36,272 bases of DNA. Source: Chloroflexaceae bacterium. GTDB lineage: Bacteria > Chloroflexota > Chloroflexia > Chloroflexales > Chloroflexaceae. Location: assembly GCA_028282325.1 (NCBI GenBank), contig JANQID010000100.1, forward strand, positions 1 to 36,272. The letters run 5' to 3'. Positions 5,147-26,535 of the stretch are shown piece by piece; the stretch's first letter is position 1, and the number at the start of each line of letters is the position of its first letter. The notes below the pieces were generated by a model. That model was not told where the DNA came from. It made no database searches and saw only the letters and a program-made list of their open reading frames with translations. The translations under genes and the position numbers were made by a program.

Positions 5147-5280
5147 TACCAAACGATGCTACCCATACCGCATGTCACCCTGAGCTTGTCGAAGGGGAAG
5201 GGTCTCGGCGTTGGTTGGAATCCGAGATTCTTCGCTACGCTCAGAATGACGCCATGCGGTGTCTCCCATATTGTTTGGTA
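5147..5280 (+). repeat. dispersed inverted-terminal-repeat element, copy A (134 bp)
   Basis: Begins TACCAAACGAT and ends ATTGTTTGGTA, near-perfect inverted ends. The inside carries the CACCCTGAGCTTGTCGAAGG segment followed by GGTCTCGGCGTTGG and GATTCTTCGCTACGCTCAGAATGAC. Other copies with the same ends are at 8330, 18901 and 26308, and a one-ended copy at 30748. No coding capacity: a MITE- or REP-like element. Confidence 0.75.
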
Positions 5281-5346
5281 GATATGCAATGAAACTGGCC
5301 GGAAAAGTGGGTGACAGGTAGACCAGATTGTCGTATCCAGGAAGCT

Positions 5347-5360: not shown

Positions 5361-5463
5361 TTGGGAAACCCTGCTGAATACGTACAGTTTGAAATACTCG
5401 TCGGGTTGTTTTCACGAATGGAATGTTGACCGCTCGCACCTCATCGTTTCGGGAGGATTGCCG

Positions 5464-5955
5464 ATGGAATCGCTCGACATCGCCCGGCAAATACTGCTTG
5501 CGCTGGCGCCCTTTGCCAGCAACGGCACACTGACCACGTCCGGGGCTGGCCCGTCCGATCCGGCGCCGCAACTGGCCCAACGGGCCTGGAGTTTGCTGAC
5601 GGCCAATGCGCAGAACAATCCGCGACTGACCGTTGCGCTGGAGATCTTCCAGGCCGAGCCCGACGATCAGCGCAACCTGGAGCGGCTGGCGCAACAGCTA
5701 GCCGACCACCTGCACCAGCAGACCCTGGGCGAATTGCGCGCGATTATTGGCCAGCTCCAGCAGCACGCCCGGCAGGCCCAACCCCAGGTCAACGTCAGCA
5801 ATACTGGTGAGAACGCCGGCCAGCAGGTCGGCATCAATACCGGCCAGATGGCGCAACAGGTCGATCAAAAGACCGACATTACGCTGGGCGACCGGATCAG
5901 TACCGGGCGACATCAGCGGCAGCGGGATTGCGATCGCCGACGATGTCTCGTCTGA
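5464..5955 (+). CDS. repeat-tailed adaptor-like protein, C-terminus frameshifted
   Basis: From ATG 5464, preceded by GGGAGGATTGCCG (a good ribosome site), a 163-aa product. Residues 1-100 are helical (L-A-L-A-P-F-A ... Q-R-A-W-S-L-L), then a Gln-rich linker and short repeats N-T-G-E-N-A-G-Q-Q-V-G-I-N-T-G-Q followed by T-D-I-T-L-G-D. In related effector-associated proteins this tail continues as G-D-I-S-G-S-G-I-A-I-G-D. Here the current frame turns into Arg-rich nonsense after base 5905, while the +1 frame from 5906 to the TAG at 6032-6034 reads exactly G-D-I-S-G-S-G-I-A-I-A-D-D. One inserted G explains this. The gene is probably a decayed adaptor of the kind that precedes STAND ATPases; the ancestral end is 6034. 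Family assignment is inference. Confidence 0.55.
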   Translation: MESLDIARQILLALAPFASNGTLTTSGAGPSDPAPQLAQRAWSLLTANAQNNPRLTVALEIFQAEPDDQRNLERLAQQLADHLHQQTLGELRAIIGQLQQHARQAQPQVNVSNTGENAGQQVGINTGQMAQQVDQKTDITLGDRISTGRHQRQRDCDRRRCLV

Positions 5956-6172: not shown

Positions 6173-6202
6173 TTGTAGAAAGTTCGTTAATGCGAGTATA
6201 AT
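6173..6202 (+). promoter_or_regulatory. promoter of the STAND operon, leaderless type
   Basis: TTGTAG (6173-6178), 18-nt spacer, TATAAT (6197-6202). The -10 ends only 6 nt before the ATG at 6209, so transcription should start at or within one or two bases of the start codon. No Shine-Dalgarno is present, consistent with a leaderless mRNA. Confidence 0.55.
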
Positions 6203-6208
6203 CATCAG

Positions 6209-7447
6209 ATGATTGATCAATTAGATCCAAGCATTGATGCGATGCATTCAGATGGCTTCAACCTACAACTCGCTACGGTCTATACCTACCTTGGCCAATG
6301 GCTCGAAGCGCCGATTAGACCGGATACCTCAGCCCTGACATATGTATCGTTAGCGCAACACCATTTGTTCCCCACAGTTATTTCCGAGATTGCGAACGCC
6401 GTCGATCTCCCAGAGCCTGTCACCGCATTATTCACCGGAATTGCCCTGCTCGCACCGGAGCAAGAACGCAATCACGATCTTCTCAAGGAACTGATCGTTC
6501 AGTCCACGGTCCTCCGCTGTGATCAATTTGTTGATCGCTACTATGAACTGGTGCTGACCTGGGGTTGCGGATGCCGATTTGCATCTGCCGCAACTTTCCC
6601 GCCCTGGGAAACTGCCGTCATCGCACTGGAAAGCCTTTGCGAGCCACTGGTAGAAAAGGCGCTGTGGCAACTCGCTGCGCTGCACTTCCCTCCTCCTGCC
6701 GGAGATAAGATACGACGTCTAGCGTCAGATCATGCGAAAGGCAAACAGAGCTATGGGTCGTCGCTCGCACTTGAGCTTGTAGCACTCGATAAATTACGTA
6801 CCTGGAAGCTAGATCAGTATAGCCTCAGAAGTCACTTGCTCTTGCAGATTGGAGGTCAGCCGGGTGGCATCAGTGTGCGTAGCGGTTCATTCTCCAGTAG
6901 CGTACTGTACCCATTGCTGCGCGACGAAATCGGCATTCGAGATGGTACGGTTGGGTTCTTCGTATGTCATAGCCCGGAATGCAATGGCGCACAGGTGGCT
7001 GAAGCGATCGCCCTGGCTTGTCCACCGAAGATCATCGACTTGCAGCGCCACGGGCTCTTTGAGGGGAATCATTGTAGATATTGTGGCCGGGTTAGCGATC
7101 CAGAACAGACGTATCGCCTGGCTCGTCGCCACTGGCTGATCGTTCCAGCAGCGTATGGCGGTGCCTATGAGCAACGACAATTCTTTCGATGTACCTCCTG
7201 CGGACACCATTTTCTATGCTCGGAGTCCTATACGAATCTAAACAATATTATTGATGAGTTCAAGAAAGTTACTGATGAGGGTCAACTGCAACAACATAAG
7301 GTGTTCAAAAAAGCGAAAATCGAACTCGCCCGGATGCGCTCCGAGGAGAAGTGTCCAATCTGTTCGTGTACTTCGATCTCGCAGCGTCTGGTGCATCTCT
7401 GGGTCTACAACCCTGGTTCGCGCCTGACACGGCATATGGAAACCTAA
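6209..7447 (+). CDS. cysteine-cluster (zinc-ribbon-like) protein of the STAND operon
   Basis: A 412-aa protein with no signal peptide. The N-terminal 230 residues are helical. The C-terminal part has paired cysteine/histidine motifs: C-H-S-P-E-C at about 251-256, C-R-Y-C at about 289-292, C-T-S-C-G-H-H-F-L-C at about 329-338 and C-P-I-C-S-C at about 385-390. These look like two zinc ribbons or treble-clef fingers, spaced by a helical insert. I do not recognise the family. It starts at ATG 6209 directly behind a TATAAT box, without ribosome site, and its stop lies 4 bases before the next ATG. As first gene of the operon it could act as nucleic-acid-binding or protein-binding component of the STAND system; this is inference. 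Confidence 0.7.
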   Translation: MIDQLDPSIDAMHSDGFNLQLATVYTYLGQWLEAPIRPDTSALTYVSLAQHHLFPTVISEIANAVDLPEPVTALFTGIALLAPEQERNHDLLKELIVQSTVLRCDQFVDRYYELVLTWGCGCRFASAATFPPWETAVIALESLCEPLVEKALWQLAALHFPPPAGDKIRRLASDHAKGKQSYGSSLALELVALDKLRTWKLDQYSLRSHLLLQIGGQPGGISVRSGSFSSSVLYPLLRDEIGIRDGTVGFFVCHSPECNGAQVAEAIALACPPKIIDLQRHGLFEGNHCRYCGRVSDPEQTYRLARRHWLIVPAAYGGAYEQRQFFRCTSCGHHFLCSESYTNLNNIIDEFKKVTDEGQLQQHKVFKKAKIELARMRSEEKCPICSCTSISQRLVHLWVYNPGSRLTRHMET

Positions 7448-7451
7448 GGCC

Positions 7452-8321
7452 ATGAATTCAGACTCTGACGCATCTACAGTTCACGATGCCGATGCACGAG
7501 CACTGCTTGACCGGCTGCATTGGCCAGGCGTCGGTGGATGCTATCTTGCAAGCGATTTCTTTCATACTATCGTTCGCCCAATGTCGCCGGATGCTGACGG
7601 CACAAGAACAATCATTATTGCTCTTCGTCCACGGCGTGCTGAGGTGTCGTTACCAGTACATCTCGCGTTCGTGCTGATCAACGATACCCGATCAAACCTC
7701 CTACACTATGGCACCTTCAATCGTATCGGTCAGGCACAGATCGCCAATGTTACATCCGGACTCCTGCGTTTACGCAGTGCATCTGCAGGTGCCTCCAACG
7801 TGCATGCGAGCATGCTATCGCTGTTACCGACAGCATGGGTTGTCGACCCTGCCCAAAGTGCCTTCGCTGCCGATCAGGATCGCTCCGATACACTCCAGTT
7901 TCAGCACGCAGATGGAGATTTGAGCGCCCGGCTGCAAATGGAAGACGGCGTCACCTACTTGCTGGTGACGGCTCATCATCAGCGCTGGGCGTCGTCACTG
8001 GTGTGTTTGGGTTGGGAGGGTACCGATAGTGATGGACAAAACCAGATCCATGAGGCGATGCTCCCATTGATCTGGTATCAGTCTCTGGAATGCTGGGGTG
8101 GGCGAATCAAACTTACCAATGGCTATCCGTTGCGCTTCTGGCCACCGCAAGAGCCACTTAGCCCGACCTGGTTGGAGAACATACCACTCTCGGTGGTGCA
8201 GTCTGCAGTTGCAGCATCAGCCTCACTGCCGACACGCAGAGCATGGCAGGAGCTTGCGCGTACTACCGATCTTTCAAGCACGATTCGCGACGCCATTCAG
8301 AAACAACTCGATATGTCATGA
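7452..8321 (+). CDS. unknown protein of the STAND operon
   Basis: A 289-aa soluble protein, no signal peptide or membrane segment. It is mixed alpha/beta, with several aromatic-rich strands (W-x-x-S-L-V-C-L-G-W-E-G; L-I-W-Y-Q-S-L-E-C-W-G-G) and a helical C-terminus. The ATG at 7452 is 4 nt after the previous stop, with AAGG close upstream, so translation is probably coupled. A 109-bp inverted-repeat element was inserted between this gene and the STAND gene. No family recognised. The constant company of a cysteine-cluster protein and a STAND ATPase suggests a partner or ligand-recognition role (inference). Confidence 0.65.
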   Translation: MNSDSDASTVHDADARALLDRLHWPGVGGCYLASDFFHTIVRPMSPDADGTRTIIIALRPRRAEVSLPVHLAFVLINDTRSNLLHYGTFNRIGQAQIANVTSGLLRLRSASAGASNVHASMLSLLPTAWVVDPAQSAFAADQDRSDTLQFQHADGDLSARLQMEDGVTYLLVTAHHQRWASSLVCLGWEGTDSDGQNQIHEAMLPLIWYQSLECWGGRIKLTNGYPLRFWPPQEPLSPTWLENIPLSVVQSAVAASASLPTRRAWQELARTTDLSSTIRDAIQKQLDMS

Positions 8322-8329
8322 GTTGTTGC

Positions 8330-8438
8330 TACCAAACGAAAATGAATACGTCGCATGTCACCCTGAGCACCGATGGCCCTCCGCCGGGCCATCGGTGCTC
8401 AGGGTGGCATCAGGCGGTATCTCCAATATCGTTTGGTA
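8330..8438 (+). repeat. dispersed inverted-terminal-repeat element, copy B (109 bp), with 21-bp hairpin
   Basis: Ends are perfect inverted copies of TACCAAACGA (12 bp with the outer GC). Inside, bases 8359-8379 and 8386-8406 are perfectly complementary over 21 bp with a 6-nt loop. The hexamer AGTTGT flanks it at 8321-8326 and 8441-8446, a possible target-site duplication with a 1-nt offset. The hairpin sits between two operon genes, where it could reduce read-through or stabilise the upstream mRNA. Confidence 0.8.
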
Positions 8439-8494
8439 GCAGTTGTGCCGCAACATCTTCAAACACATACCCCCAATCGTTAAGGAACGGCATT

Positions 8495-11400
8495 ATGAAA
8501 GTATTGGGATCCATTGCTGCGGCTCAGCGCGGCACAAGCGAAGATCATCTGCGTTGCTTTCGCCAACTGGTAGGACCGGAGCAACATTGGATTGCTGCCT
8601 GCCGTGAAGTTGTTGCGACCCGGCGTAGCGAGCTTCTGGATCTCCCCACCGGCACACCCCTGAAATGGGCCGCAGTGCTGATTGAAGAGAACCTGCCCCT
8701 CGATGCATCAAGCATCACCGGGCGTGCAAAGGCGATCGCTTCCGTCGCCCAGGCCATCTTGCTGGCTGAAACAGAGCCGGTTGCTGCGAAACAGTTGATG
8801 GTGCGGGCTGCCGAAGACTGGAGCAATACGCGCATCTCGGAGACGCCCCTGGCCTGGGCGCGTACATCTGTTTCTATCGGAAGCACCGGTGTGACGGTGT
8901 CGTTGGCATTTGAGCCATTGTTTGACGCTCTCGCTGTGTTCCCTCCCACCCTGGCCGCGATCCTTACTGACCTCACGTACGATCTGGCCAGTTCCAGATT
9001 ACCCTCAGATTCACTGGTTACACTCCCGATTGTGCTTGACCACAGTAGCGGTGGTCTGGTAGCAGACCTCACACTCGAGAAAGTGAACGGCTTACCACCG
9101 GTGTGTTATCCGGATCCGGCGCGGATGGCATTCTATGCGCTTGGCAAGGAATTTGTGCAGGCACTGGCGCACGCTGAGGAGCGGGTTCGTTCGACTCAGC
9201 GCCTGTCTGATTTGGGAGCCGTGCGCTGGCGGCTTTCCCCTCGGTCAAATCGAGCGAGGGAAGATATCTCATTACATGCCCTGCGTGGCGGATCGGTCGG
9301 CCTCGGCTTTGCGCTAGGCCTGCATCAGCTTGCCGACCCGGTCGACGCGCCACTCCAGCGGCATTGGGCCGCAACCGGAGCCTTGAGAGATAATGACGGC
9401 ACGCTTGGCTCCGTCCAGGGCTATGCACGTAAGCTCGCCGCAGCCGACAAATCGCGTTTAGGGTTGATCTACCCGGTAGCAGATCAAGAACAGGTCAGTC
9501 ATTTACTCCAGGCGTCACAAATCCAGACCCGAGCAGTTGCCACGGTCGATGAGGCCCTCGCATTCCTCAGCGGCTCCGAACGTCCGCCCTGCCCCTATCG
9601 TGGACTGAATCAGTTTAGCGAAGCCGATGTCCACTTCTTTTTCGGTCGTGATGCCGAGATCGACGAGATTCGCACGCGGGTCGCGGCATGCCCCCGGTTA
9701 CTTGCACTCCTAGGTTCTTCCGGTAGTGGAAAATCGTCGCTGATCCATGCTGGCCTGCTTACCGGTATTGCAGCGCGGCACCCGGAGTGGCAGGTGCGAA
9801 TTGCCAGGCTGGGCGAGCACCCATTCAGTGCTCTGGCTGAGATTGGCCTGGTCAACTCCGGCGGTGATCTGGTCGACACCCTCAAACATGAGCTTGAACG
9901 CAAGCATCCCGGCACACACCTGCTGCTCGTGCTGGATCAGTTCGAGGAAGTGCTGGCGCTTTGCCTACCTGATGAGCGCCAGCGTTTCCTCGATCAACTA
10001 ACGGAGATACTGCGTTGTGATCTGCCAGTGACGCTGGTGCTGGTGATGCGGAACGATTTCTATAGCCAGCTCAACCGGCTTGCGCCCGGTATCATGGGCT
10101 ATGTCGTCGGCAACCAGATGCACTTACCCGATACGCCTGATCGAGCCAGCCTGGAAGAAATGATCGTTCTCCCGGCGCTTGCTACCGGTGTCGATCTGGA
10201 AGCGGGTCTGCCGGAACGCATCAGTAGCGATCTGCTGCTGGATCGTGCACTTGATGAAAGCAGTGTTGGTGGTATTTTACCGATCCTCGCCTTTACGATG
10301 GCACGGTTATGGGAAGAGAGTAGCACCGACAGCTTGAGCCATGCAACGTACCATGCAATTGGTCGTGCAGCCAATGTGCTGGTCGAATGGAGTAGCCAGG
10401 CCATCGCGCAGCTTTCGAAACCTCATCAAAGGCTCGCCAACCAGATCATCCTCGAACTGGTGCAACCCGGTGATGTCAGTGACGGTCTGCCCGACAGTCG
10501 GCGACGACGGCTGATCAGCGATCTCTACAGGAGCGTTGGTGAAGATGCGGAGTTGACGTCTACGTTGCACCATCTCATTCGGTCCCGCCTGCTGGTGAGC
10601 GGACGCGTCGGCGAACGGGAAACGATCGAGTTAATTCATGACGTGCTGGTACGTGAATGGGACCACTTGCGTGATCTGATCGATCAGAATCGACGCTTCT
10701 TGGCCTGGAAACGTGATTGCGAAAGCCAGATGCAGCGCTGGCAAGATGCCGGTGAACAGGTAACCCGGTTACTGCCGCGAGAAGAGATAGTTGAAGCCGA
10801 GCGTTGGCAGCGCGAACATCTAATCGAAGAACGCCTGCTCGCTTATATCAATATGAGCGCAGCATATCGGGATAAGCAACGCCGAAATACTCGGTTGGGC
10901 CTGGTTGCAGCATTCGTTGCATTGATGATTGTTGTTATCTTCACGTCGTATGCCTACGTGGTAACCAACGCGAGCCTGCGGCGTTCCGAAACTGAGCGTA
11001 TGGCACTGACTGCCCGTAACAGTCTTGCAACAGCACCTGAAGAGGCAATCCGGCAAGCGATCGCAGCCTTCAACAAAGATGCAAATCCATTCACCGAGGA
11101 GACCTTGCACGTTGTGGCGCAGGCAACCAGTGTGCGGGCAATCCTGAGTGGTCATCAGGAGAGTGTCCTGGCTGTAGCGGTGAGTCCTGATGGGCGCACC
11201 CTGGCCACCGCTAGTAGCGATCAAACGATCATCCTCTGGGATTTGCCAGAAGGTCAGGTGCGACAACGCCTGGAAGGCCATTTTGATCAAGTCAACACGC
11301 TTGCTTTTAGCCCTGATGGGCGTTTGCTAGCCAGCGCCGCCGGACCGACCGACCCGTCCGTCCGGCTCTGGGATGTCGCACGTGGCCAGGTTGTCGGGGC

Positions 11401-12937
11401 GCTGGAAGGCCACATCGCTGGAATTGTCGATCTTGCATTTAGCCTTGATGGATCGAGGCTTGCTAGCATCGAAGGCCTGGATGATATCGCCGTCAATGGC
11501 AACCGGAGCGTACGAGTCTGGGATGTTGCATCGCGGACTGAACAGGCAATGCTAACCCTTGAAGAACAAGAGCTAGGCTATGTCGAGTTTGATGCGACAG
11601 GTAAGACGCTGATAGTCGCCAGCGAGCAATCGATCCTGCGCTGGGATTTCACAAACAACGAGATCTTCCCCATAGCGACCATCCCCATGCTGCGCGAAGC
11701 CGACATTGCACTCGAACGGGAACTGCTGGTACTCGCAAGCAAAGATGGCAGCCTCCATCTGATGAACCTACACGCTTCCGAATCCTATCGTACGTTCCAG
11801 GCCGATAATGAACCAGTCACGACAGTGGTCTTTAGTCCTGACGAGCAGACGTTTCTCAGTGGGCATAATGATGGGATAGTACGTCTCTGGGATGTCGAAA
11901 CCGGGACAGTGATCCACACCTATGCTGGTCATACTGATGAGATTATGGATCTGGCCTTCACCCCCGATGGCCAGACGATCATCAGTGGCGGACGTGACAA
12001 GCAGGCTCGGATCTGGGCGCGCGAACCGGGCGCGGAATTGCATGAACTTGTACACGTCGGCGACGGGGCGACACAGTCGCTGACCTTTAGCCCAGATGGC
12101 AGCACACTGGCAATCGCCAGCAGCGATGGTCACGTCTATCGACAAGTGATCGGTAGCGGGGAGACAGCTCAGGAACTGATAGGCGCGGGAGAATCACCAA
12201 CGGCAATCGCATTCTCCAACGATGGCACAATGCTGGCGATTGGCTATGACGATGGGGCGATTGTACTCTGTGATCCAACCACAGGCCGACTGCTAGACCG
12301 GCTCGAAGGCCACATTGGAGCCATCCAGGTACTACGCTTTCATCCAAGCCGCCCCTTACTCGCCAGCATTTCGACTGATGACACCTTGCGCCTGTGGGAT
12401 CAACGCGCCAACTGGCAGAGCCAGGCAATTAAGGCCCACAGCTTCGACCCGGTCGGATTGGTCTTCAGCCCTGATGGAACCGTCATCTTCACGGCTGGGC
12501 GTGACCAGTTCGTTCGGCGCTGGACAGTCGCCGGTGGGCAAGCTGATGGTGAACCGTTTGGGCTTGATGCTGTGCTCAGCGCGCTAACTGTTGATGCTGC
12601 CGGCAGCATCTATGTTGGCCTGAACTCAGAGGAGGTGGTAATTCTAACGCCCCAGGGAAATCAGCAATCACGTATGTCCGTTAGTTCCATACCACTGGAA
12701 TTGGTGATCACTCCCGACCAGGAGCTGATCACCATCAGTAAAGCTGAGGCCGCCCGCTATATCGCCGATCAGCCAATGCGCTACATGCAGGCCGAGCGAC
12801 CAATCACTGCCGCAGCATTGCATCCCGATGGGCAACTTCTGGCACTAGGCGATGCCGATGGAACGGTTCGCCTGATTCTGATCGACCCGACCACAATCGA
12901 GGAGCTGTTGGAGGATCGACTACGCATTCGCGAATGA
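8495..12937 (+). CDS. Lon-like / nSTAND1 NTPase / transmembrane / WD40-repeat protein
   Basis: A 1480-aa protein starting at ATG 8495 (AAGGA at 8482-8486); an in-frame upstream start at 8243 would cross the repeat element and previous gene. Domains in order: residues about 110-360 resemble an S16 Lon-type protease fold (R-G-G-S-V-G-L-G-F-A-L-G-L near 260, A-T-G-A-L and G-x-V-Q-G-Y-A-R-K-L-A-A-A near 300). Then P-Y-R-G-L-x-x-F and F-F-G-R-D opens an nSTAND1 ATPase, Walker A G-S-S-G-S-G-K-S-S at about 407-415, Walker B L-V-L-D-Q-F-E-E at about 477-484. One transmembrane helix at about 803-825 after K-Q-R-R-N-T-R, then about ten or more WD40 blades (S-P-D-G-x-x-L-A-T ... L-W-D). STAND proteins switch state on ligand binding. 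The topology suggests ATPase inside and propeller outside (inference). Lon activity is doubtful because the usual catalytic Lys position appears to be Ala. Confidence 0.85.
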   Translation: MKVLGSIAAAQRGTSEDHLRCFRQLVGPEQHWIAACREVVATRRSELLDLPTGTPLKWAAVLIEENLPLDASSITGRAKAIASVAQAILLAETEPVAAKQLMVRAAEDWSNTRISETPLAWARTSVSIGSTGVTVSLAFEPLFDALAVFPPTLAAILTDLTYDLASSRLPSDSLVTLPIVLDHSSGGLVADLTLEKVNGLPPVCYPDPARMAFYALGKEFVQALAHAEERVRSTQRLSDLGAVRWRLSPRSNRAREDISLHALRGGSVGLGFALGLHQLADPVDAPLQRHWAATGALRDNDGTLGSVQGYARKLAAADKSRLGLIYPVADQEQVSHLLQASQIQTRAVATVDEALAFLSGSERPPCPYRGLNQFSEADVHFFFGRDAEIDEIRTRVAACPRLLALLGSSGSGKSSLIHAGLLTGIAARHPEWQVRIARLGEHPFSALAEIGLVNSGGDLVDTLKHELERKHPGTHLLLVLDQFEEVLALCLPDERQRFLDQLTEILRCDLPVTLVLVMRNDFYSQLNRLAPGIMGYVVGNQMHLPDTPDRASLEEMIVLPALATGVDLEAGLPERISSDLLLDRALDESSVGGILPILAFTMARLWEESSTDSLSHATYHAIGRAANVLVEWSSQAIAQLSKPHQRLANQIILELVQPGDVSDGLPDSRRRRLISDLYRSVGEDAELTSTLHHLIRSRLLVSGRVGERETIELIHDVLVREWDHLRDLIDQNRRFLAWKRDCESQMQRWQDAGEQVTRLLPREEIVEAERWQREHLIEERLLAYINMSAAYRDKQRRNTRLGLVAAFVALMIVVIFTSYAYVVTNASLRRSETERMALTARNSLATAPEEAIRQAIAAFNKDANPFTEETLHVVAQATSVRAILSGHQESVLAVAVSPDGRTLATASSDQTIILWDLPEGQVRQRLEGHFDQVNTLAFSPDGRLLASAAGPTDPSVRLWDVARGQVVGALEGHIAGIVDLAFSLDGSRLASIEGLDDIAVNGNRSVRVWDVASRTEQAMLTLEEQELGYVEFDATGKTLIVASEQSILRWDFTNNEIFPIATIPMLREADIALERELLVLASKDGSLHLMNLHASESYRTFQADNEPVTTVVFSPDEQTFLSGHNDGIVRLWDVETGTVIHTYAGHTDEIMDLAFTPDGQTIISGGRDKQARIWAREPGAELHELVHVGDGATQSLTFSPDGSTLAIASSDGHVYRQVIGSGETAQELIGAGESPTAIAFSNDGTMLAIGYDDGAIVLCDPTTGRLLDRLEGHIGAIQVLRFHPSRPLLASISTDDTLRLWDQRANWQSQAIKAHSFDPVGLVFSPDGTVIFTAGRDQFVRRWTVAGGQADGEPFGLDAVLSALTVDAAGSIYVGLNSEEVVILTPQGNQQSRMSVSSIPLELVITPDQELITISKAEAARYIADQPMRYMQAERPITAAALHPDGQLLALGDADGTVRLILIDPTTIEELLEDRLRIRE

Positions 12938-12952
12938 CGATGAGGAGGCCCG

Positions 12953-13900
12953 ATGCGACACGTACTACGACTGACCCTGCTCATGCTCGGATTGGCTCTG
13001 GCAGCCTGTGGCACTGCTCCTGAAGCATCGAATACTGCCGAACCAGTCCCAGGGGTGCCACCTGAACCCGAACTGGTCGACGGCATGGTTGCCGTGCCGG
13101 AAGGATCGTTCCTGCGCGGCAGTACAGATGAAGACATCGACGCCTATGTTTCGTTATGTGAGCAAGCCCAGGCAGCGTGTGTCCGCGACAACTTTCTGGA
13201 CGAACAGCCGCAGCGAGACATAACGCTCTCAACGTTCTTGATTGATCGCTACGAGGTCAGCAACCGCGATTTCGCTGCGTTTGTCGCGGCGTCTGGTTAT
13301 CAGACATTTGCCGAACAACAGGGCGAGAGCACGATCTGGAACGACGCGGTACGTGAGAGTCAGGTGATTCCCGGTGCGTCCTGGCGCACCCCCGATGGCC
13401 CAGACTCGAACATTGACAACCGCCTGGATCACCCTGTGGTACACGTGACCTGGGCTGATGCGGCGGCCTACTGCGCGTCGCAGGGGAAGCGCTTACCGAC
13501 CGAAGCCGAGTGGGAGAAGGCCGCCCGAGGCGACGCCGACGGACGGCGTTTTCCCTGGGGCAATGAGTGGCAGACCACATTCGTGAACGGGGTACTCCCC
13601 GATGAAAGAGCCGTCGGCACTGTTGCAGTGACGGAATTCTCCGAGGGTGACAGTCCCTACGGCGCACGCCAGATGCTCGGCAACGTCTTCGAGTGGGTCG
13701 CCGACGCCTACGACGAAAGCTACTTCGCCACCAGCCCTGATGTCGATCCGGCCCTCCTCGACGACGGTAGCGGTCTACGGGTCGCACGTGGCGGTGGTTG
13801 GGCCACACGCGCCGGCTTCTTCCATATTGGCTGGCGGCGCGTGCTAGGGCCGGATACGAGCAACAACACCACCGGTTTTCGCTGTGCACGCGATGGGTAA
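12953..13900 (+). CDS. lipoprotein with FGE-sulfatase-type (C-type-lectin fold) domain
   Basis: A 315-aa protein with signal peptide and lipobox L-A-A-C (Cys at about residue 19), then a Pro/Glu linker. From about residue 43 an FGE/SUMF1 domain: M-V-A-V-P-E-G-S-F-L-R-G-S, I-D-R-Y-E-V-S-N-R-D-F, P-V-V-H-V-T-W-A-D-A-A-A-Y-C, R-L-P-T-E-A-E-W-E-K-A-A-R-G, W-G-N-E-W, G-N-V-F-E-W-V and a final R-G-G-G-W ... G-F-R-C-A-R. True formylglycine-generating enzymes need two active-site cysteines just after the GGSW strand; these are not present, so a binding role is more likely than sulfatase activation. GAGGAGG precedes the ATG, 15 nt after the STAND stop, so it is the last gene of the operon. In a single-membrane cell it would sit on the outer face, beside the WD40 part of the STAND protein. 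Confidence 0.8.
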   Translation: MRHVLRLTLLMLGLALAACGTAPEASNTAEPVPGVPPEPELVDGMVAVPEGSFLRGSTDEDIDAYVSLCEQAQAACVRDNFLDEQPQRDITLSTFLIDRYEVSNRDFAAFVAASGYQTFAEQQGESTIWNDAVRESQVIPGASWRTPDGPDSNIDNRLDHPVVHVTWADAAAYCASQGKRLPTEAEWEKAARGDADGRRFPWGNEWQTTFVNGVLPDERAVGTVAVTEFSEGDSPYGARQMLGNVFEWVADAYDESYFATSPDVDPALLDDGSGLRVARGGGWATRAGFFHIGWRRVLGPDTSNNTTGFRCARDG

Positions 13901-13913: not shown

Positions 13914-13952
13914 GAGTGCAGGTAGTTCGGTAAAACCGAACTACCTGCACTC
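13914..13952 (+). terminator. hairpin terminator after the FGE lipoprotein gene
   Basis: A perfect 17-bp stem (GAGTGCAGGTAGTTCGG with its complement) around a TAAAA loop, starting 14 bases after the stop. The following tail (GCATTATTT) is only weakly T-rich. It probably ends the STAND operon. Confidence 0.65.
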
Positions 13953-16868: not shown

Positions 16869-16931
16869 CCCGTGAGCATTGCAGTTCCGGCGCAAGAGAT
16901 GACCATGCGCTCACATCTAGAGGAGGCTCTG

Positions 16932-17906
16932 ATGAACTCACAGCCACGACCGCCATTCCATATCGCTTTCTGGCGTCTACTGCGCAGCTACATGCCCTCT
17001 TTCAAGGTCAGGCAATCGGCGTGGCTGCGGAGACTCTTGCCAACTCCCGGGAATGTGATTTTCACCCTCTTGCTGGTTGGTGGCCTGTTCTGGGCCGGCA
17101 CTGCCGGTGCGGTACCCCTGCTCCAGGGCGGTGAGTTGATCAGCACGATACCCTACCAGGGACGCTTGGCCGATGCCGACGGTGCGCCGCTCACCGGCAC
17201 CTACAGCATAGCCTTCCGGCTCTACAGCGCAGCTACAGGCGGCGCGCCGCTCTGGGAAGAGCAGTGGACCGGCTCCAACGGTGTCCAGGTATCGGACGGG
17301 TTGTTCAATGTTATGCTCGGAAGCTTAACACCCGTACCACAGAGCGTGATTACGGGTAATAGTAATCTCTGGCTGGGGGTCACAGTTGGCACCGATGACG
17401 AGATGACTCCACGTGTCCAGATTGGCACGCTACCCTTCGCCGTACAGGCGCTCACCGTACCAGATGGTGCCATTACGACTGAGAAACTGGACGACGGTAG
17501 CGTTACATCAGACAAATGGAACCCAACGAGCGGCATCATTCATTCTCCGGGCGATATCGCTCTACCCGCTGCTACCAATCAATTCATCGATCTGGCCAGC
17601 ACGCCTGTAACGATAAACCTTGAGAAACCAGCCATCCTTACAGCTTATCTGACTGCAGATATTGCAGTTGGCCCAAACACCACCGCTGCGGCAGTTCTCT
17701 GGGTAAATAACACGAGCGCGGGATCCGGCGCAATCCTCGGCTCCGATAGCAGCGGTGGCATTCGCGCAAGTGTCGCCCAGCAATACCGGCAAGTGCTTCC
17801 TGCTGGATCATATACGTTGCAGATCCGAGGAGTGCGCATCTCAGGATCTTCATCTGCCACCGTTATGGGGCATACCTATCTCACATATGTTGTGCAGAGC
17901 CAATAA
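16932..17906 (+). CDS. membrane-anchored YQGRL-type surface protein, intact paralogue
   Basis: A 324-aa protein starting at ATG 16932, directly after a consensus AGGAGG; the upstream in-frame start at 16872 is disfavoured, and the paralogue at 18090 begins with the same M-N-S-Q-P. An N-terminal membrane helix (about 43-63, T-L-L-L-V-G-G-L-F-W-A-G) is followed by the widespread bacterial domain I-P-Y-Q-G-R-L-A-D-A-D-G-A-P-L-T-G-T-Y, F-R-L-Y, W-E-E-Q-W, D-G-L-F-N-V-x-L-G, G-V-T-V-G-T-D-D-E-M-x-P-R and P-F-A-V-Q-A. A Gly/Asp-rich linker leads to a C-terminal beta-sandwich ending T-Y-L-T-Y-V-V. Function unknown; found in surface or fibre-like proteins. Confidence 0.7.
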   Translation: MNSQPRPPFHIAFWRLLRSYMPSFKVRQSAWLRRLLPTPGNVIFTLLLVGGLFWAGTAGAVPLLQGGELISTIPYQGRLADADGAPLTGTYSIAFRLYSAATGGAPLWEEQWTGSNGVQVSDGLFNVMLGSLTPVPQSVITGNSNLWLGVTVGTDDEMTPRVQIGTLPFAVQALTVPDGAITTEKLDDGSVTSDKWNPTSGIIHSPGDIALPAATNQFIDLASTPVTINLEKPAILTAYLTADIAVGPNTTAAAVLWVNNTSAGSGAILGSDSSGGIRASVAQQYRQVLPAGSYTLQIRGVRISGSSSATVMGHTYLTYVVQSQ

Positions 17907-17936
17907 GTAGTTCGTAAAGTAAGTTTTCCAGTAGAA

Positions 17937-18030
17937 GTACGGGCTTCGACAAGCTCAGCCCGCGCCATCCGTACCCTGAGCTGGTTCCTGAGCTTGCCGA
18001 AGGAGCGAAGGGTCTTGAGAGGATGTCAGT
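17937..18030. repeat. remnant of dispersed repeat
   Basis: The stretch contains CTTCGACAAGCTCAGCCCG and CCTGAGCTTGCCGAAGGAG, inverted and diverged versions of the core segment of the element described at 5147. Neither terminal repeat is seen. It lies between the two paralogous genes. Confidence 0.45.
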
Positions 18031-18089
18031 TACCGAACTTGCTGGATGCACCGCTTTGCACTCCATGCTTCAAGCCTGAGGAGTAGATT

Positions 18090-18877
18090 ATGAACTCACA
18101 ACCACACCCACCATTCTACATCGCGATCTGGCGTCGATTGTGCGACTATCTGGCTACACACAAGGCCGGGCGAGCAGCATGGTTGCGAGCGTTCTTGCCA
18201 ACCCCGGGAAATGCGCTGTTCACGCTCATGCTTGTCGGTGGGTTGTTCTGGGCCAGCAGCGTCGGCGCCGTACCGCTGCTCCAGGGAGGCAGTACCATCA
18301 ACACGATTCCCTACCAGGGGCGGCTTGCCAACGCCGAAGGAACACCCCTGACTGGCATGTATCCGATGGCTTTTCGGCTCTACAGCAACTCCACAGGCGG
18401 CGCGCCACTATGGGAAGAGCAATGGACTGGCTCGAATAGTGTTCAAGTATCGGACGGGTTGTTCAACGTGATGCTCGGAAGCTTAACACCCGTGCCGCAG
18501 AACGTGATTACCGGCAATAGCAACCTCTGGCTTGGGGTCACGGTCGGCACCGATGATGAGATGGCGCCGCGCATCCAGATCGGCACCCTGCCCTTCGCGG
18601 TGCAGGCACTGACTGTACCCGATGGGGCGATCACGATTGAGAAGATTGCTGATGGCAGTGTTACAACGGAGAAATTAACGGAAGGGGTGGAGGGATCACC
18701 ATTACCTTCCCACAAGTATTCAACCGGACTCCAATAGTTGTCATCACCCAACATGAAACAGTTAATAACCCTGCGAACTACGTGACCACAAGGGTCACCA
18801 ATACGAGCTTTCAGGTCGCCAAAGTCACAAACTGTTCAACTAAAGGTAACGTGGATTGGATCGCGATTGGCAATTAG
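18090..18877 (+). pseudogene. frameshifted paralogue of the YQGRL protein with H-type-lectin-like tail
   Basis: ATG 18090 follows TGAGGAG. The first 190 residues closely match the 16932 product from M-N-S-Q-P to P-F-A-V-Q-A-L-T-V-P-D-G-A-I-T. The frame then ends prematurely at 18737. From about base 18692 another frame continues without stop to 18877 and reads G-G-I-T-I-T-F-P-Q-V-F-N-R-T-P-I-V-V-I-T and later F-Q-V-A-K-V-T, ending W-I-A-I-G-N. This pattern (T-F-P-x-x-F ... P-x-V ... W-x-A-I-G) is that of an H-type-lectin-like domain. A one-base deletion near 18685-18692 explains the break, so the ancestral protein was an anchored YQGRL protein with a lectin-like tip. A sequencing error or a programmed shift at the G-rich site (GGGGTGGAGGG) cannot be excluded. 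Confidence 0.65.
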
Positions 18878-18900
18878 CAAGGTTGGCTCTCTAGCAACTC

Positions 18901-19039
18901 TACCAACCGATAGTGGAGATACTGCATGGTGTCATTCTGAGCGCAGCGAAGAATCCCGGCTGCCGCTACGCCCGAGACCCTTCATTCCGCCTGCGGCTCC
19001 ATTCAGGGTGACATGCGGCATTTGTATTATTGCTTAGTA
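18901..19039 (-). repeat. dispersed inverted-terminal-repeat element, copy C, reverse orientation
   Basis: Begins TACCAACCGAT and ends ATTGCTTAGTA (one and two mismatches to the other copies). Internal segments GTGTCATTCTGAGCGCAGCG and GAGACCCTTC ... CAGGGTGACATGC are reverse complements of those in the copies at 5147 and 26308. It lies between the broken paralogue and the C39/Ig gene. Confidence 0.65.
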
Positions 19040-19167
19040 TCGTCCGCCAATACTTGGCGTGTGGTGCTATCTTGCGCCACACGCCCCGGGAATACGCACC
19101 ACGGCCATGCAAACGAGCCTGGTTGTGCGCAGGTGGCAATCCTCGTCAATCCACGAAAGGCAATGAG

Positions 19168-22100
19168 ATGATCAGAAGCTTCGTTTCACATCGTATCGTT
19201 GCAATCCTTCTGTTTGCACTGATCGCAGCCTCGATGCTGTTCCTCATGCCACTCGTTGATGCCTCGGGAATCGCTGCCAGCGATGCTGATGCGCAGGAGG
19301 TTCGTGCTGACGAGGATTATTTGATACCGCCTATTGATGTTGCACAAGCGTCGGAGTTAGATTCAGAGAGTATTGCGAGGATATCGGTTTCGCCCTTTTA
19401 CCAAGGCAATTATTCTGATGATTTAGGTCTAGGAAATTGCCAGAATACTATTGCATCACATGGTTGCACCATAACCTCTTTAGCAATGGTTTTTAACTAC
19501 CACCAGCCTGGCTTCACAGATCCTCCCCGGCTTAACAGTTGTAAGCAAAACCTGGGATTTTTTGACGGTTGTTACGCCCAATTGGATCGATTATGGGGTC
19601 CATGTACGCCCGATGGTGTTTCGGTTGATGGATCAAACATATGGGGGTCATTCTCTTGGGATAGGATTGACTCTGATCTTCGGAATAGATTGCCAGTTGT
19701 GGTTGGTATTGACGGTCGTCCTGGCGCTAGCGAACATTGGGTGGTACTTGTTGGAAAGAATAGAGATGGGACATATATTACTCGAGATCCGTCCCCAGGA
19801 TCTTACTACCATCCTGAAGACAGGCTTCCAGCATGGAGGATTAATGCGGCTATTCATATTGACGGCCCGCGAGGCGGCGGCGGTGGAAGCCAACCGGTTC
19901 CAACGGCTAAACCTGGCCAGCCTGAACCAACACCCAATCCAGTACCCCCAACACCAGTACCCATACAGCGCTGCGATCCGCCATCAACGAACGAGCCGAC
20001 GCCCCGCTCGTATCACAGCAACGCCAATGTGACGTTTCGATGGGGCTCGGTTAATTGTGTTGGAAGCAATCACGGGGGCAACTATCGGATCCAGGTGTTC
20101 AAGGATGGGGGCCAGCGCATTGTTGATCGCATGGTGAATGGCAACAGCACAACGATTGCTATTCCCAGCGAGTTCCATAACCAGTTGCTCTATTGGCGAG
20201 TCGCTGCTGAGGCGTCCGGTCGCAGGTGGAGCGGGAATATCCCATTCTATGTCACCCCCAATCAGCAGCCGCGCTTCTCGCTCATCCAGGTCAATGAACA
20301 GACTGTTTCAAGCAATGGCCAGACGATCGTGCTAAACACAGCTACAGTAACCCTCTCGGGTGTCGCCAACGATCCTGATGGGCAGGTATCCTATGTGGAA
20401 CTGGAGTGCGCAGGTGATACCTGCAATCGACGGGGCATACGAGCCTCCGGCACAGAGAATTGGAGCAGTACGTTCTCTGGCCTCGAAGGCCGGCATACGA
20501 TCGGGCTCTATGTCTACGACAATACCACCGCTGGTGGGAGACGTGGTCGTAGTGACCGTCGCACTGTTGTGGTACTGGTCGATACTGCCCCACCGACAAC
20601 AGACGTCACCGTCGATGGAGCGCAGAACTGGCCTGACTGGTTCCAGAAGCCGGTTGAGGTTGTTATCCATGCTGACGATCGACCAACCCGCAGTGCATTG
20701 GCAGGTGTCCAGAACATTCGCTACCGTGTGATCGAGAACGGCTCGGCCGGCCCGTGGCGCACGATTACCGGTAGTCGTGCATCATTCGTGTTGAACAACG
20801 ATGCCCGCTATGTCGTTGAGTATTACGCAGTTGATAATGCCGGGAATGCAAATGGAAGTAACCAGAGTCCCAGGACGTTGACGGTTGGTATCGACCGCCA
20901 GGGGCCGGAGTTGCCTGCAACCGCACAGGAAACAAACGGCGTGACGAACGGCCAGTGGCAGCGTGATTCGCAGACCCCCTTGTTCACATGGAATACGGCA
21001 ACGGATGCACTGTCGGGTGTAGCCGGTTATCAGGTCTACTTCGGGAAAAACCCGAACGGAACCAACCATGAGTATCTTCCGGCTGCGCGGCGTAGCTGGC
21101 CGCCACGCGAGGTAACGGTTGGGACGGCGACCTACTACCTGCGGCTACGTGCGCGTGACAATGCCGGTAATTGGAGTGGATGGCAGACTCTGTTTGTCTA
21201 TCGTTACGACGGTACACCCCCGGCAAACCCTACTGGCCTCCAGCATCGTGATGGGATTGTGAGCAATGTCTGGCAGAATACGACCGCCGAGTTGAGCGTC
21301 GTCTGGCCAGCCGTGGTGGATAAGGGCTCCGGTATTCGTGGACAATACGTCTACTGGGGCACGGACGAGGCCGGAACCGGCACGGCCTTTGTGACCAACA
21401 ACCAGTACACTGCCGCCGAAGCCCTTTGCGACCGAAATGCGGCATGCACTGGCTATGTGCGGCTCCTTAGTGAGGACAACGTCGGGAATCGTGCAGATGA
21501 ATCGACGACCAGTTTCATTCTGCGCTATGACGGCGTGCCTCCGACCGTTGATTTCACGATCAATGCAGGTGCCAGTGAAACTAACCAGAGCCGGGTTACG
21601 CTGGCGCTGGAAGCAGCCGATGTCGGCAGTGGTGTCCGCGCCATGCGCTTCTCGTATGACGGAGTGCGCTGGACTGATTGGGAGGCCTATCAAAACCAGC
21701 GGATCGTTCCTATTCCGAGTGTCAGTGGGATTGCCTGGCCAATCTACGTGCAGGTGCAGGATGAAGTCGGGTTGATATCGGAGGCTGTCGATCATTCGAT
21801 TGTGCTGGATGTAAACCCCGATCAGCCTCAATCGGCAAGCTTTCGCCTGTTTGATCACACTCTCAGCGCCGGAAGTGCTGCATTCAATTCAGCAAGCTTT
21901 CGTTCACGCGCAACTGTTGGTCAGGCGACCGACGGCACACCGGCAACAAGCAACCGGTTCATGCTGGGGAGTGGGTTCGAGCCTGCCAGCCAGGCCCTGC
22001 CACTCGAAATACCTGGACGCGACTCATATATGTTGTTGAATGCTGTCTTTGCGTCTGGATCGGACGCAACTGCTATGGACTCGGCAGCATACAACATGAC

Positions 22101-23484
22101 CGGTATTGTCGGTGAACTCGGCGTGCCAAATAACGAGGTCGATCTCGCAAGCGCCGCATTCATCCACCGTCCCGGCTTTCTAGCCTGGTTCCCGCGGCCG
22201 CTCCCGGATGCTGAAGCACCGCCTGAGGAAGATTCGCCATCCGCCTGTGAGGAACCCCAGATCCGGATCAATGCTGATGCAGCCTACACAACAACTCCGA
22301 TTGTCCAGCTCGACATTTGCGCACCACGAGCAGTTGCCATGGCCGTCAGCAACACATCGGATCTTAGTGCAGCCATATGGGAGCCGTATGCCGAGCAGAA
22401 GAGCTGGTCGCTTGGAGTGGTAGATCAGCAAGTGTTGCCGCGTTTCGTCTACATTGCGTTCCAGGATGCAGATGGGAACATCCTTAACACATACGCTGAC
22501 GACATCATCTATGATCCGACTGCGCCGGAGGTTGAGGTGTTGGTAGGCGATAGTGTTGCACAGAACGAAGCTCTTGCGCGAAGCTCTGGTGTCTGGGCCC
22601 AACAGGCATTGCTGCAAACGATCACGCCACAGGCTACCGCTGATGACGGCCAGATCACTCTGTACCTGAATGCCTTTGACGATAACAGCGGGATCGAAGC
22701 AGTGCAATTGAGTGCCACCGCCGATTTCTCCAACGCCACCTGGAAGGCTTATGAGGCAGAACAGGGTTGGATTCCGGTGGAGGCAGACGGACTCCAGCAG
22801 GTGTTTGTGCGCCTACGCGATGAGGCGGGCAATATCTCTGAGGCAGTTACCGCCAGTTACATCGTCGATACGGAAGGGCCTGAAGGTGGGGTGACCGTCG
22901 AACCGGAAGTTATCGGTGCAGATGCCTCGTTCGTAACGCTGCGTCTCACCAGTGCAGATAACCTGGGTACGCCGAGCGCGATGCGATTGAGTACCGCATC
23001 CGACATGAGTGGTAGTTCGTGGCAACCGTTTGTATCAACAGTGCTCTGGCCAGTTGTGATCGGGGATCGCACGTGGGAGACAATCTTTGTCCAGTTCCGT
23101 GATAGCAACGGGAACGAGTCGCAGATATACGATGCCACATACGCTGTTGATCGCTTTGCGCCAGTGATCGTCTTCAGTGAGGTTGCGGAGAGTGACAGTG
23201 CGACACGGTCAGTGCAAATCGTTGGTTACGATGGCCTTGGCTCTAGCCCAACAACGATGTATCTCAGCAATGATCCGCTGATGGAAAATGCAGAAGTACA
23301 ACCTTACAGCGAGCAGTTCGATTGGAGCTTCACCGAAAGTGGAGTACTCTGGATTCAGCTCGAGGATGCCATGGGGAACAAGAGTGATCCGCAAGGAGTA
23401 TTCACCTGGGCGGTAGAAGATGATCCAGTTGATCCGGGCCGGTTACAACAACGGCGTCTATACATGCCGCTCGTTATGCGCTGA
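19168..23484 (+). CDS. secreted C39-like protease with Ig-like repeats
   Basis: A 1438-aa protein. ATG 19168 follows GAAAGG and opens a signal peptide (about residues 1-32, I-L-L-F-A-L-I-A-A-S-M-L-F-L). Residues about 75-235 resemble a C39-family papain-like peptidase (Peptidase_C39_2): N-C-Q-N-T-I-A-S-H-G-C-T-I-T-S-L-A-M-V with the likely catalytic Cys, later E-H-W-V-V-L-V-G with the His and T-R-D-P with the Asp. A Gly then Pro-rich linker (P-V-P-T ... P-T-P-V-P) leads to at least eight Ig/fibronectin-like domains marked by D-T-A-P-P, D-G-T-P-P and D-N-A-G-N motifs. The last residues are R-R-L-Y-M-P-L-V-M-R, a C-terminal tag I associate with secreted Chloroflexota proteins. Substrate unknown; the repeats suggest a surface-bound or extended enzyme. 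Confidence 0.8.
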   Translation: MIRSFVSHRIVAILLFALIAASMLFLMPLVDASGIAASDADAQEVRADEDYLIPPIDVAQASELDSESIARISVSPFYQGNYSDDLGLGNCQNTIASHGCTITSLAMVFNYHQPGFTDPPRLNSCKQNLGFFDGCYAQLDRLWGPCTPDGVSVDGSNIWGSFSWDRIDSDLRNRLPVVVGIDGRPGASEHWVVLVGKNRDGTYITRDPSPGSYYHPEDRLPAWRINAAIHIDGPRGGGGGSQPVPTAKPGQPEPTPNPVPPTPVPIQRCDPPSTNEPTPRSYHSNANVTFRWGSVNCVGSNHGGNYRIQVFKDGGQRIVDRMVNGNSTTIAIPSEFHNQLLYWRVAAEASGRRWSGNIPFYVTPNQQPRFSLIQVNEQTVSSNGQTIVLNTATVTLSGVANDPDGQVSYVELECAGDTCNRRGIRASGTENWSSTFSGLEGRHTIGLYVYDNTTAGGRRGRSDRRTVVVLVDTAPPTTDVTVDGAQNWPDWFQKPVEVVIHADDRPTRSALAGVQNIRYRVIENGSAGPWRTITGSRASFVLNNDARYVVEYYAVDNAGNANGSNQSPRTLTVGIDRQGPELPATAQETNGVTNGQWQRDSQTPLFTWNTATDALSGVAGYQVYFGKNPNGTNHEYLPAARRSWPPREVTVGTATYYLRLRARDNAGNWSGWQTLFVYRYDGTPPANPTGLQHRDGIVSNVWQNTTAELSVVWPAVVDKGSGIRGQYVYWGTDEAGTGTAFVTNNQYTAAEALCDRNAACTGYVRLLSEDNVGNRADESTTSFILRYDGVPPTVDFTINAGASETNQSRVTLALEAADVGSGVRAMRFSYDGVRWTDWEAYQNQRIVPIPSVSGIAWPIYVQVQDEVGLISEAVDHSIVLDVNPDQPQSASFRLFDHTLSAGSAAFNSASFRSRATVGQATDGTPATSNRFMLGSGFEPASQALPLEIPGRDSYMLLNAVFASGSDATAMDSAAYNMTGIVGELGVPNNEVDLASAAFIHRPGFLAWFPRPLPDAEAPPEEDSPSACEEPQIRINADAAYTTTPIVQLDICAPRAVAMAVSNTSDLSAAIWEPYAEQKSWSLGVVDQQVLPRFVYIAFQDADGNILNTYADDIIYDPTAPEVEVLVGDSVAQNEALARSSGVWAQQALLQTITPQATADDGQITLYLNAFDDNSGIEAVQLSATADFSNATWKAYEAEQGWIPVEADGLQQVFVRLRDEAGNISEAVTASYIVDTEGPEGGVTVEPEVIGADASFVTLRLTSADNLGTPSAMRLSTASDMSGSSWQPFVSTVLWPVVIGDRTWETIFVQFRDSNGNESQIYDATYAVDRFAPVIVFSEVAESDSATRSVQIVGYDGLGSSPTTMYLSNDPLMENAEVQPYSEQFDWSFTESGVLWIQLEDAMGNKSDPQGVFTWAVEDDPVDPGRLQQRRLYMPLVMR

Positions 23485-23919: not shown

Positions 23920-23970
23920 GAACAAGCTTCTGGCTGTTTCTCTAATTGGAGAACAACCAGGAGCTTGTTC
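23920..23970 (+). terminator. strong hairpin between RiPP precursor and maturase genes
   Basis: A nearly perfect 22-23-bp stem (starting GAACAAGCTTCTGG, ending GGAGCTTGTTC) around a TAATT loop, 11 bases after the precursor stop. No long T-run follows, so partial termination or mRNA stabilisation is more likely than a full stop; it would keep precursor mRNA in excess over maturase mRNA. Confidence 0.6.
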
Positions 23971-23996
23971 GCTCTTTGCAGAAAGGCATGGCTGCT

Positions 23997-24974
23997 ATGA
24001 AGAACAAATTGCTAATTGTCACGGCCAAGGAAGACGTTCACGTTGATTACATGATCCAGGCAATTCAAGCAAGAGGTTTCCAAGATTGCGTTGTCAGGTT
24101 GAATACAGAAGATCTGTTGCGGAATACAACTTTCACTTTTGATCAAGGTAGCTTCAAAATGAAGTTAAGCGACTCGGGTCGTGAATTCACGGACTCGCAG
24201 ATAGGTTGCGTCTGGTATCGCAAACCGCACGATGTGACTGTTCCTGATCTCTTTGAAGAAGATGCACGCGACCTCGTTGAAGGTACAGCCGAAACGGTGT
24301 TGCAAGGCATATACTATTTGATGACTGAATCAGCCGTTTGGATTAATCCAAGAAAGACGGCTCAATATAGTAGCAATAAACTAAAACAAACCCAGGTAGC
24401 TGAATTGATAGGTTTCAATGTTCCTCGAACAATCATCACAAATGATCTTTCAGAAGCGCTTGCCTTTGTCGAAATGACAGGGAAGGTTTGTACAAAAGAT
24501 TTCGACACTTCAGGCCGTAATTCGTACAGAGGTGAGCCGACATTTACTGTTGTATTGGAGAAATCCGAGATAAGAGACATGATCAAAACTGTAGAATTCT
24601 GTCCAACTTTATTTCAAGAATATATAGAAAAAGCCTTTGATCTGCGCGTAACTGTAATCGGTGAAGCTATGTATGGAGTGGAGATTCACTCTCAGGATCA
24701 CAAGGAGTCAGAAATAGACTTCAGGATAGTGGCCCCTGATCGCATCAAACATGTCGAGCACTCGATACCAGATGCATTGCGCCAGCAAATCCTGGCCTAT
24801 ATGCATCAGTATGATCTTGTCTATTCCGCGCTTGACTTCGCAGTAACTCCTGATGGTCGATACTTCTTCTTGGAGAATAACCCGAATGGACAATGGTTAT
24901 GGCAGGAATTGCTGTGCAGTGTGCGGATTAGTGATGGCTTCATGAAGTTTTTTCAGTCGACACTGGAATGGTGA
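23997..24974 (+). CDS. ATP-grasp peptide ligase (graspetide maturase, MvdD/SAV_5884-like)
   Basis: A 325-aa enzyme. ATG 23997 is chosen because GAAAGG ends 10 bases upstream; the in-frame ATG at 23988 is only 1 base from it. The N-terminal part (K-L-L-I-V-T-A ... D-Y-M) is the pre-ATP-grasp fold, with V-W-Y-R-K-P near residue 72. The central region has N-x-R-K-T-A-Q-Y-S-S-N-K-L-K-Q-T-Q and K-D-F-D-T-S-G-R-N (nucleotide clamp), then Q-E-Y-I-E-K-A-F-D-L-R-V-T-V-I-G and the metal-binding F-L-E-N-N-P-N-G-Q-W near the C-terminus. This is the RimK-like architecture of MvdC/MvdD-type enzymes that make omega-ester or omega-amide cross-links in the precursor. The gene is AT-rich compared with its neighbours, and the IS element begins 13 bases after its stop, so downstream export or protease genes of the cluster may have been lost. 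Confidence 0.85.
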   Translation: MKNKLLIVTAKEDVHVDYMIQAIQARGFQDCVVRLNTEDLLRNTTFTFDQGSFKMKLSDSGREFTDSQIGCVWYRKPHDVTVPDLFEEDARDLVEGTAETVLQGIYYLMTESAVWINPRKTAQYSSNKLKQTQVAELIGFNVPRTIITNDLSEALAFVEMTGKVCTKDFDTSGRNSYRGEPTFTVVLEKSEIRDMIKTVEFCPTLFQEYIEKAFDLRVTVIGEAMYGVEIHSQDHKESEIDFRIVAPDRIKHVEHSIPDALRQQILAYMHQYDLVYSALDFAVTPDGRYFFLENNPNGQWLWQELLCSVRISDGFMKFFQSTLEW

Positions 24975-26248: not shown

Positions 26249-26307
26249 GGGGAATCCCCCCTTGCACACGCCGCCTGCCCTGAGCCTGTCGAAGGCGCCG
26301 GTGTCGA

Positions 26308-26535
26308 TACCAAACGATGATGCGTATGCTGCATGTCACCCTGAGCTTGTCGAAGGGTCTCAGCGTTGGGGGAAACTGAGATACTTCGCTGCGCTCAGAA
26401 TGACCGCATTGAGCATGCTGCATGTCACCCTGACCCTGAGCGCAGCGAAGGGGAAGGGTCTCGGTGGCCTTGGGATCCGAGATTCTTCGCTGCGCTCAGA
26501 ATGACACCATGCGGTATCTCCAATATTGTTTGGTA
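26308..26535 (+). repeat. dispersed inverted-terminal-repeat element, copy D, two core units (228 bp)
   Basis: Starts TACCAAACGATG and ends ATTGTTTGGTA. Inside, the core unit occurs twice with an 89-bp offset (GCGTATGCT at 26322, GAGCATGCT at 26411), the same period seen at 30748. The second unit has an extra GACCCTGAGCGCAGCGAAGG stretch. The right end abuts a reverse-transcriptase fragment. Confidence 0.75.

Follow-up and report, generated by a model that had tools for sequence, protein, structure and literature searches.

A four-gene operon of a Chloroflexaceae bacterium carrying a predicted Lon protease on a transmembrane STAND protein

Introduction

STAND proteins are prokaryotic relatives of the apoptosome and inflammasome switches. 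According to the logic described for this family, NTP-dependent assembly starts once a ligand has bound the C-terminal repeats (PMC7159879). The STAND/CLec(FGE) loci of multicellular bacteria, described as putative conflict systems, build on this switch, and some of their sensors are predicted to be periplasmic or secreted (PMC7159879, PMC8195603, PMC10907252). A second point of reference is CalpL: oligomerisation switches on its Lon domain, which cleaves a partner protein dedicated to it (PMC11417357).

Here we analyzed a stretch of 36,272 nucleotides (hereafter the window; contig JANQID010000100.1) from a Chloroflexaceae bacterium, a relative of filamentous photosynthetic bacteria, which contains a rare operon resembling both. 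A sequence-only reading of the window had proposed four genes on one strand, encoding a Cys-cluster protein, a second partner, a membrane STAND NTPase with a Lon-like N-terminus and a WD40 propeller outside the cell, and an FGE-fold lipoprotein. The operon was compared with those of its relatives, namely two Candidatus Chloroploca genomes (G285 and G287) and one further genome of the family (G352).

Results

Operon layout and gene start

The four genes proved to be consecutive on the + strand, and a strong terminator stands at the end of the series. The features of the region are as follows:

6209-7447, + strand: ORF1, 412 aa, with Cys clusters, a probable zinc-ribbon protein with homologues in G285, G287 and G352
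7452-8321, + strand: ORF2, 289 aa, predicted to comprise two beta-sandwich domains and C-terminal helices, with homologues in the same 4 genomes
8320-8445, no strand: dispersed palindromic repeat separating ORF2 from the STAND gene, outside the system, with 58 genome matches
8495-12937, + strand: Lon-nSTAND1-TM-WD40 protein (the STAND protein), 1480 aa, corrected start
8987-9574, + strand: S16 (Lon) proteolytic domain by remote homology, borders approximate, the N-terminal one a matter of judgement
9284-9307 and 9419-9433, + strand: Lon dyad motifs by alignment, S267 in GGSVG and K313 in GYARK, respectively
9593-10759, + strand: nSTAND1 NTPase, with Walker A GSSGSGKSS at 9713-9739 and Walker B LLLVLDQFEE at 9920-9949
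10895-10951, + strand: single transmembrane helix, N-side predicted cytosolic
11144-12934, + strand: WD40 repeats, predicted extracytoplasmic, nearly cysteine-free
12953-13900, + strand: FGE-fold lipoprotein, lipobox LAAC (Cys19), FGE copper-site cysteines absent
13914-13952, + strand: intrinsic terminator, a perfect 18-bp stem 13 nt past the FGE stop
16872-23484, + strand: associated secreted module, with tandem paralogues at 16872-17906 and 18090-18737 and a 1484-aa C39-like/Ig-like protein at 19030-23484

The terminator closes the operon. The gap between the STAND and FGE genes is 15 nt in the window, and both this gap and that between ORF2 and the STAND gene are 12 nt in G285 and G287. The STAND open frame itself spans 8243-12937; a start at 8243 was rejected, and the ATG at 8495 is most likely the gene start, because the palindromic repeat occupies 8320-8445 and the alignments with both orthologues begin at the Met encoded at 8495. 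Further copies of this repeat, which creates spurious ORFs, lie at 5147-5281, 26302-26346 and 26494-26537. Promoter-like sites were not enriched over shuffled sequence. A short upstream gene (5461-5955, + strand) with a weak CATRA-N match was excluded from the system, as it is absent beside the operon in relatives.

The N-terminal Lon-like domain

The first 383 residues of the STAND protein gave no direct match in Pfam. The Lon-like domain was matched by the NCBIfam S16 model SepM_fam_S16 (E=2.7e-3), by solved structures of the protease domain of Lon from A. fulgidus (E=1.8e-3) and by a PDZ-Lon protein encoded in this genome (E=1.3e-8), and a profile-profile comparison (hhalign) with 13 Lon-type domains gave 97.9%. 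These four lines bear out the S16 call of the earlier reading, and by significant remote homology the N-terminal domain is identified as an S16 (Lon) proteolytic domain. In the alignment to 13 canonical Lon-type domains, S267 takes the position of the catalytic Ser (GPSAG motif) and K313 that of the catalytic Lys. All four homologues keep both residues, even the G352 copy with its 30% identity. Because of these canonical positions and this invariance, the Lon protease is predicted to be competent. A hand alignment had suggested loss of the Lys and hence an inactive Lon, which was rejected once the canonical-set alignment placed K313 at the catalytic position. RadA-type proteins use a Lon-like domain as a non-proteolytic scaffold, and the domain studied here, too divergent for a direct Pfam match, might likewise be a structural scaffold without protease activity in an ordinary nSTAND1-WD40 signalling platform; the invariant, canonically aligned Ser and Lys argue against this explanation, which we consider improbable.

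The nSTAND1, membrane helix and WD40 chassis

The remaining domain calls for the STAND protein, namely an nSTAND1 NTPase, a single helix and WD40 blades, agree with the profile matches and with a conserved helix. The nSTAND1 domain was matched with E=7.9e-84 (282.9 bits against a curated cut-off of 27.1), with both Walker motifs intact, and the WD40 repeats with E=1e-72. One strongly hydrophobic helix covers aa 801-819 and begins at 799-801 in both orthologues. In the STAND protein and its orthologues the helix is preceded by 3-5 K/R and followed by 2, and nine other nSTAND1 proteins carry on average 5.6 K/R before the helix and 1.7 after it. Cysteines show a parallel but weak trend, with 0-1 on the WD40 side versus 7-8 on the N-side (Fisher P = 0.046, for the window protein alone). 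Judged by hydropathy and charge, the N-side of the helix would be inside, and therefore the WD40 propeller and the FGE lipoprotein would both lie outside. The topology proposed by the earlier reading, with the ATPase and Lon parts inside and the WD40 part outside beside the lipoprotein, is thus supported by the conserved helix, the K/R bias and an HTH-TM-FGE relative described below.

The nSTAND1-TM chassis is common in this genome and in the phylum, where it carries an N-terminal trypsin, TIR, guanylate cyclase, BTAD/kinase or HTH part instead of Lon. Since the same chassis bears these other effectors, the outside propeller is ordinary for the nSTAND1-TM-WD40 class, and what sets the window protein apart is its Lon effector.

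Conservation and distribution

The same four-gene order was found in G285 and G287, so the lack of conservation that would have spoken against the operon was not seen, with identities to the window proteins of about 43% (ORF1), 36-37% (ORF2), 47% (STAND) and 68% (FGE). Between G285 and G287, dN/dS was 0.16-0.27 for all four genes, which indicates purifying selection; dS was 0.37-0.43 for ORF1, ORF2 and the STAND gene, 0.33 for the upstream SulP gene, and 0.11-0.18 for the FGE and secreted genes. Synteny in two other genomes together with purifying dN/dS argues that the operon is not a chance arrangement. Profile searches detected ORF1, ORF2 and the STAND N-terminus, always adjacent, in one identical set of 4 among the 41 family genomes (the window's own, G285, G287 and G352), and the chance of two families landing on the same 4 of 41 genomes is about 1e-5. 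When 150 to 400 genomes from the class or phylum were searched, no additional members emerged, and the matches were confined to Lon domains in ordinary PDZ-Lon proteins and to the starts of other nSTAND1 domains. A scan of species-representative genomes for ORF1 returned only the same three relatives under strict peptide patterns, which distant members could escape. The set of homologous loci thus comprises four, all within one family.

This patchy distribution bears on whether the operon could be an anti-phage or suicide conflict system, in which an invader would be detected at the surface and the Lon protease would degrade host proteins, leading to death or arrest of the cell; ORF1 and ORF2 would then serve as adaptors or regulators. 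Besides the patchiness, such a role would fit the swapping of effectors on the chassis, and combinations of nSTAND1 with FGE and peptidases have been described as putative conflict systems (PMC10907252). The label 'conflict system' would accordingly be drawn from family resemblance. On the other side, PADLOC matches were weak and confined to the P-loop (best E=0.003), searches of plasmids, phages and viral contigs gave no matches to the system, and there is no sign of unusual allele turnover, because the dS of ORF1 to STAND is close to that of the SulP flank. We therefore hold a defence role to be possible but doubtful.

ORF1, ORF2 and the exchangeable sensor

Neither partner gene belongs to a recognized family, in agreement with the earlier reading: ORF1 and ORF2 stayed below every family cut-off, with nothing convincing in Pfam, NCBIfam, PHROGs, PADLOC or PDB. 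ORF1 has conserved cysteines at C253/H254/C258, C289xxC292, C328xxC331 and C382xxC385, and its CxxC pairs are probable zinc ribbons; its structure model (mean pLDDT 51) was too poor for a fold search. The ORF2 model (mean pLDDT 64) consists of two beta-sandwiches and a helical end, and its fold search returned nothing more specific than Ig/FN3-like sandwiches (best Z 5.8).

In G352, ORF1 (25% identity) and ORF2 (22%) precede a Lon-type N-terminus whose Lon part is 30% identical. Joined to this N-terminus is not nSTAND1-TM-WD40 but a soluble NTPase of STAND type, which carries TPR repeats and lacks a membrane helix. The G352 Lon-STAND gene is broken by an apparent frameshift, on a contig with about 5x coverage, and neither the FGE gene nor the secreted module is present on this short, 9-kb contig. 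Because G352 keeps the trio with a STAND-TPR sensor, we take ORF1, ORF2 and Lon to be the probable core of the system and the sensor half to be exchangeable. The expectation that the four genes co-occur therefore held only in part: they stand in the same order in two other genomes, but they are not one inseparable unit, given G352 and an FGE gene that tracks the secreted module.

The FGE lipoprotein and the secreted module

The FGE fold of the lipoprotein was matched by PF03781 (FGE-sulfatase, E=5.9e-60) and by a solved FGE (E=1.8e-45). Alignment to 6s07 shows that the lipoprotein lacks both copper-site catalytic cysteines; this and the lipobox LAAC together substantiate the proposal of an FGE-fold lipoprotein lacking catalytic cysteines. 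Hypermutation of the FGE gene was deemed unlikely given 68% identity across genera and a dN/dS of 0.17. FGE domains are abundant across the family genomes, and the nearest non-orthologous relative, at 51% identity, occurs in another genus (genome G214) in a STAND-free protein of HTH-TM-FGE architecture. By its layout this protein would be a membrane regulator with its FGE domain across the membrane from its HTH, which supports an outside FGE sensor. Its gene is divergently oriented and adjoins homologues of the secreted genes at 16872-23484 of the window.

The secreted module also follows the operon in both Chloroploca genomes, and thus in three genomes including that of the window. The FGE gene may travel with this module rather than belong to the switch, because it shares the module's low dS and because its STAND-free relative lies beside the module in G214; such a link weakens the case for the four genes as an inseparable unit. 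We accordingly treat the module as associated with the operon and its relation to the switch as putative.

These observations bear on another possible role, envelope signalling, in which the FGE and WD40 parts would sense the state of the surface and proteolysis of ORF1 and ORF2 would alter transcription of secreted C39/M23-type proteins. The adjoining module in three genomes, the HTH-TM-FGE protein that adjoins the module in G214 (judged by its domains, a transcription regulator in the membrane) and the shared low dS all fit this role, for which CalpL/T/S, a Lon protease freeing a transcription factor, is a precedent (PMC11417357). G352, with ORF1, ORF2 and Lon and neither FGE nor module on its short contig, speaks against it, as does ORF1, which matches no recognized DNA-binding family. 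Envelope signalling is in our view tentative, to the same degree as defence: the secreted module and the HTH-TM-FGE relative speak for signalling, the likeness to STAND/CLec conflict systems for defence (PMC10907252).

Several further genes were noted. In the G214 homologue of the 1484-aa protein, an M23 peptidase stands where the window protein has its C39-like domain, and the remainder is about 42% identical. Large secreted proteins (19030-23484 in the window, 8054-13120 in L093 and 9146-12931 in L096) share similar motifs near their C-terminal ends (LYMPLVMR, IYLPFVRR and VYLPLIRR), perhaps a sorting signal. Elsewhere in the window, a 979-aa NACHT-FGE protein (27665-30604, + strand) is a second STAND-plus-FGE candidate conflict protein, and an MvdD-type pre-ATP-grasp protein (23946-24974, + strand) is possibly a graspetide-type peptide maturation gene.

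Discussion

To our knowledge, a Lon-type effector on a STAND switch has its only parallel in the CRISPR-associated CalpL. The word Lon is absent from the main texts of PMC7159879, PMC8195603 and PMC10907252, and within the open-licence literature no paper was found that combines nSTAND1 with Lon as whole words, or STAND, Lon, NTPase, WD40 and protease together. A Lon protease as a STAND effector with two partner proteins thus appears undescribed. The earlier reading was not aware of a description of this arrangement; what appears new in it is the Lon effector with ORF1 and ORF2, not the helix and propeller, which belong to a common nSTAND1-TM-WD40 chassis.

We propose, with about equal weight for and against, that the operon encodes a STAND switch in the membrane, which would turn a cytosolic Lon protease on its neighbours ORF1 and/or ORF2. 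The WD40 propellers would read an extracytoplasmic ligand, with the FGE lipoprotein as a co-receptor; the cytosolic nSTAND1 domain would then exchange nucleotide and oligomerise at the membrane, as in the STAND family. Oligomerisation would cluster the N-terminal Lon domains and activate the Ser-Lys dyad, by analogy with CalpL (PMC11417357). In view of their obligate linkage, the conserved neighbours ORF2 and/or ORF1 would be the proteins cleaved, which would release or destroy a zinc-ribbon regulator or effector, and ORF1 and ORF2 could be adaptors instead of substrates. What can be read from the sequence in this model is the operon with its conservation, the intact Lon dyad, the intact Walker motifs, the conserved single helix, the lipobox and a core of ORF1, ORF2 and Lon with a swappable sensor.

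The locus is thus a STAND chassis with a Lon-type protease and a conserved pair of candidate substrates, and offers a compact case of putative outside-in signalling to an intracellular protease, in which the sensor swap of G352 indicates which genes go with the protease and which with the sensor.

Among described systems, the nearest sequence relatives of the Lon domain are the SepM and PDZ-Lon (YlbL-type) S16 proteases, which share its dyad motifs but, unlike the window protein, are fused to PDZ and have no STAND link. The nSTAND1-TM-WD40 proteins of Chloroflexota have the same NTPase, the same single helix with a positive N-side, a WD40 or other C-terminus and a swappable N-terminal effector, and differ from the window protein in its Lon-type effector, its two dedicated partner genes and its FGE lipoprotein gene. 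The STAND/CLec(FGE) systems likewise combine a STAND NTPase, a peptidase effector and an FGE/CLec sensor in each locus, but the peptidases described for them are of the trypsin or caspase type and are accompanied by EAD adaptors, whereas the window locus has Lon, and its FGE is a separate lipoprotein (PMC7159879, PMC8195603, PMC10907252). The type III CRISPR-associated CalpL/CalpT/CalpS system likewise has an N-terminal Lon, a C-terminal sensing and oligomerisation part and two small conserved partners (PMC11417357). CalpL is activated by cyclic oligoadenylate through SAVED, which is not among the families listed for the window protein, whose C-terminal part is nSTAND1 and WD40; no CRISPR-associated genes occur among the window proteins scanned, and no sigma or anti-sigma partner as in CalpL/T/S was recognized in the locus. 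The window protein would be an NTP-dependent STAND with a predicted outside sensor, and we suggest, tentatively, that it is a transmembrane STAND receptor that turns extracellular recognition, possibly of the cell surface in filamentous bacteria, into cytosolic Lon action on two dedicated partners, a counterpart of CalpL/T/S that works without a nucleotide second messenger.
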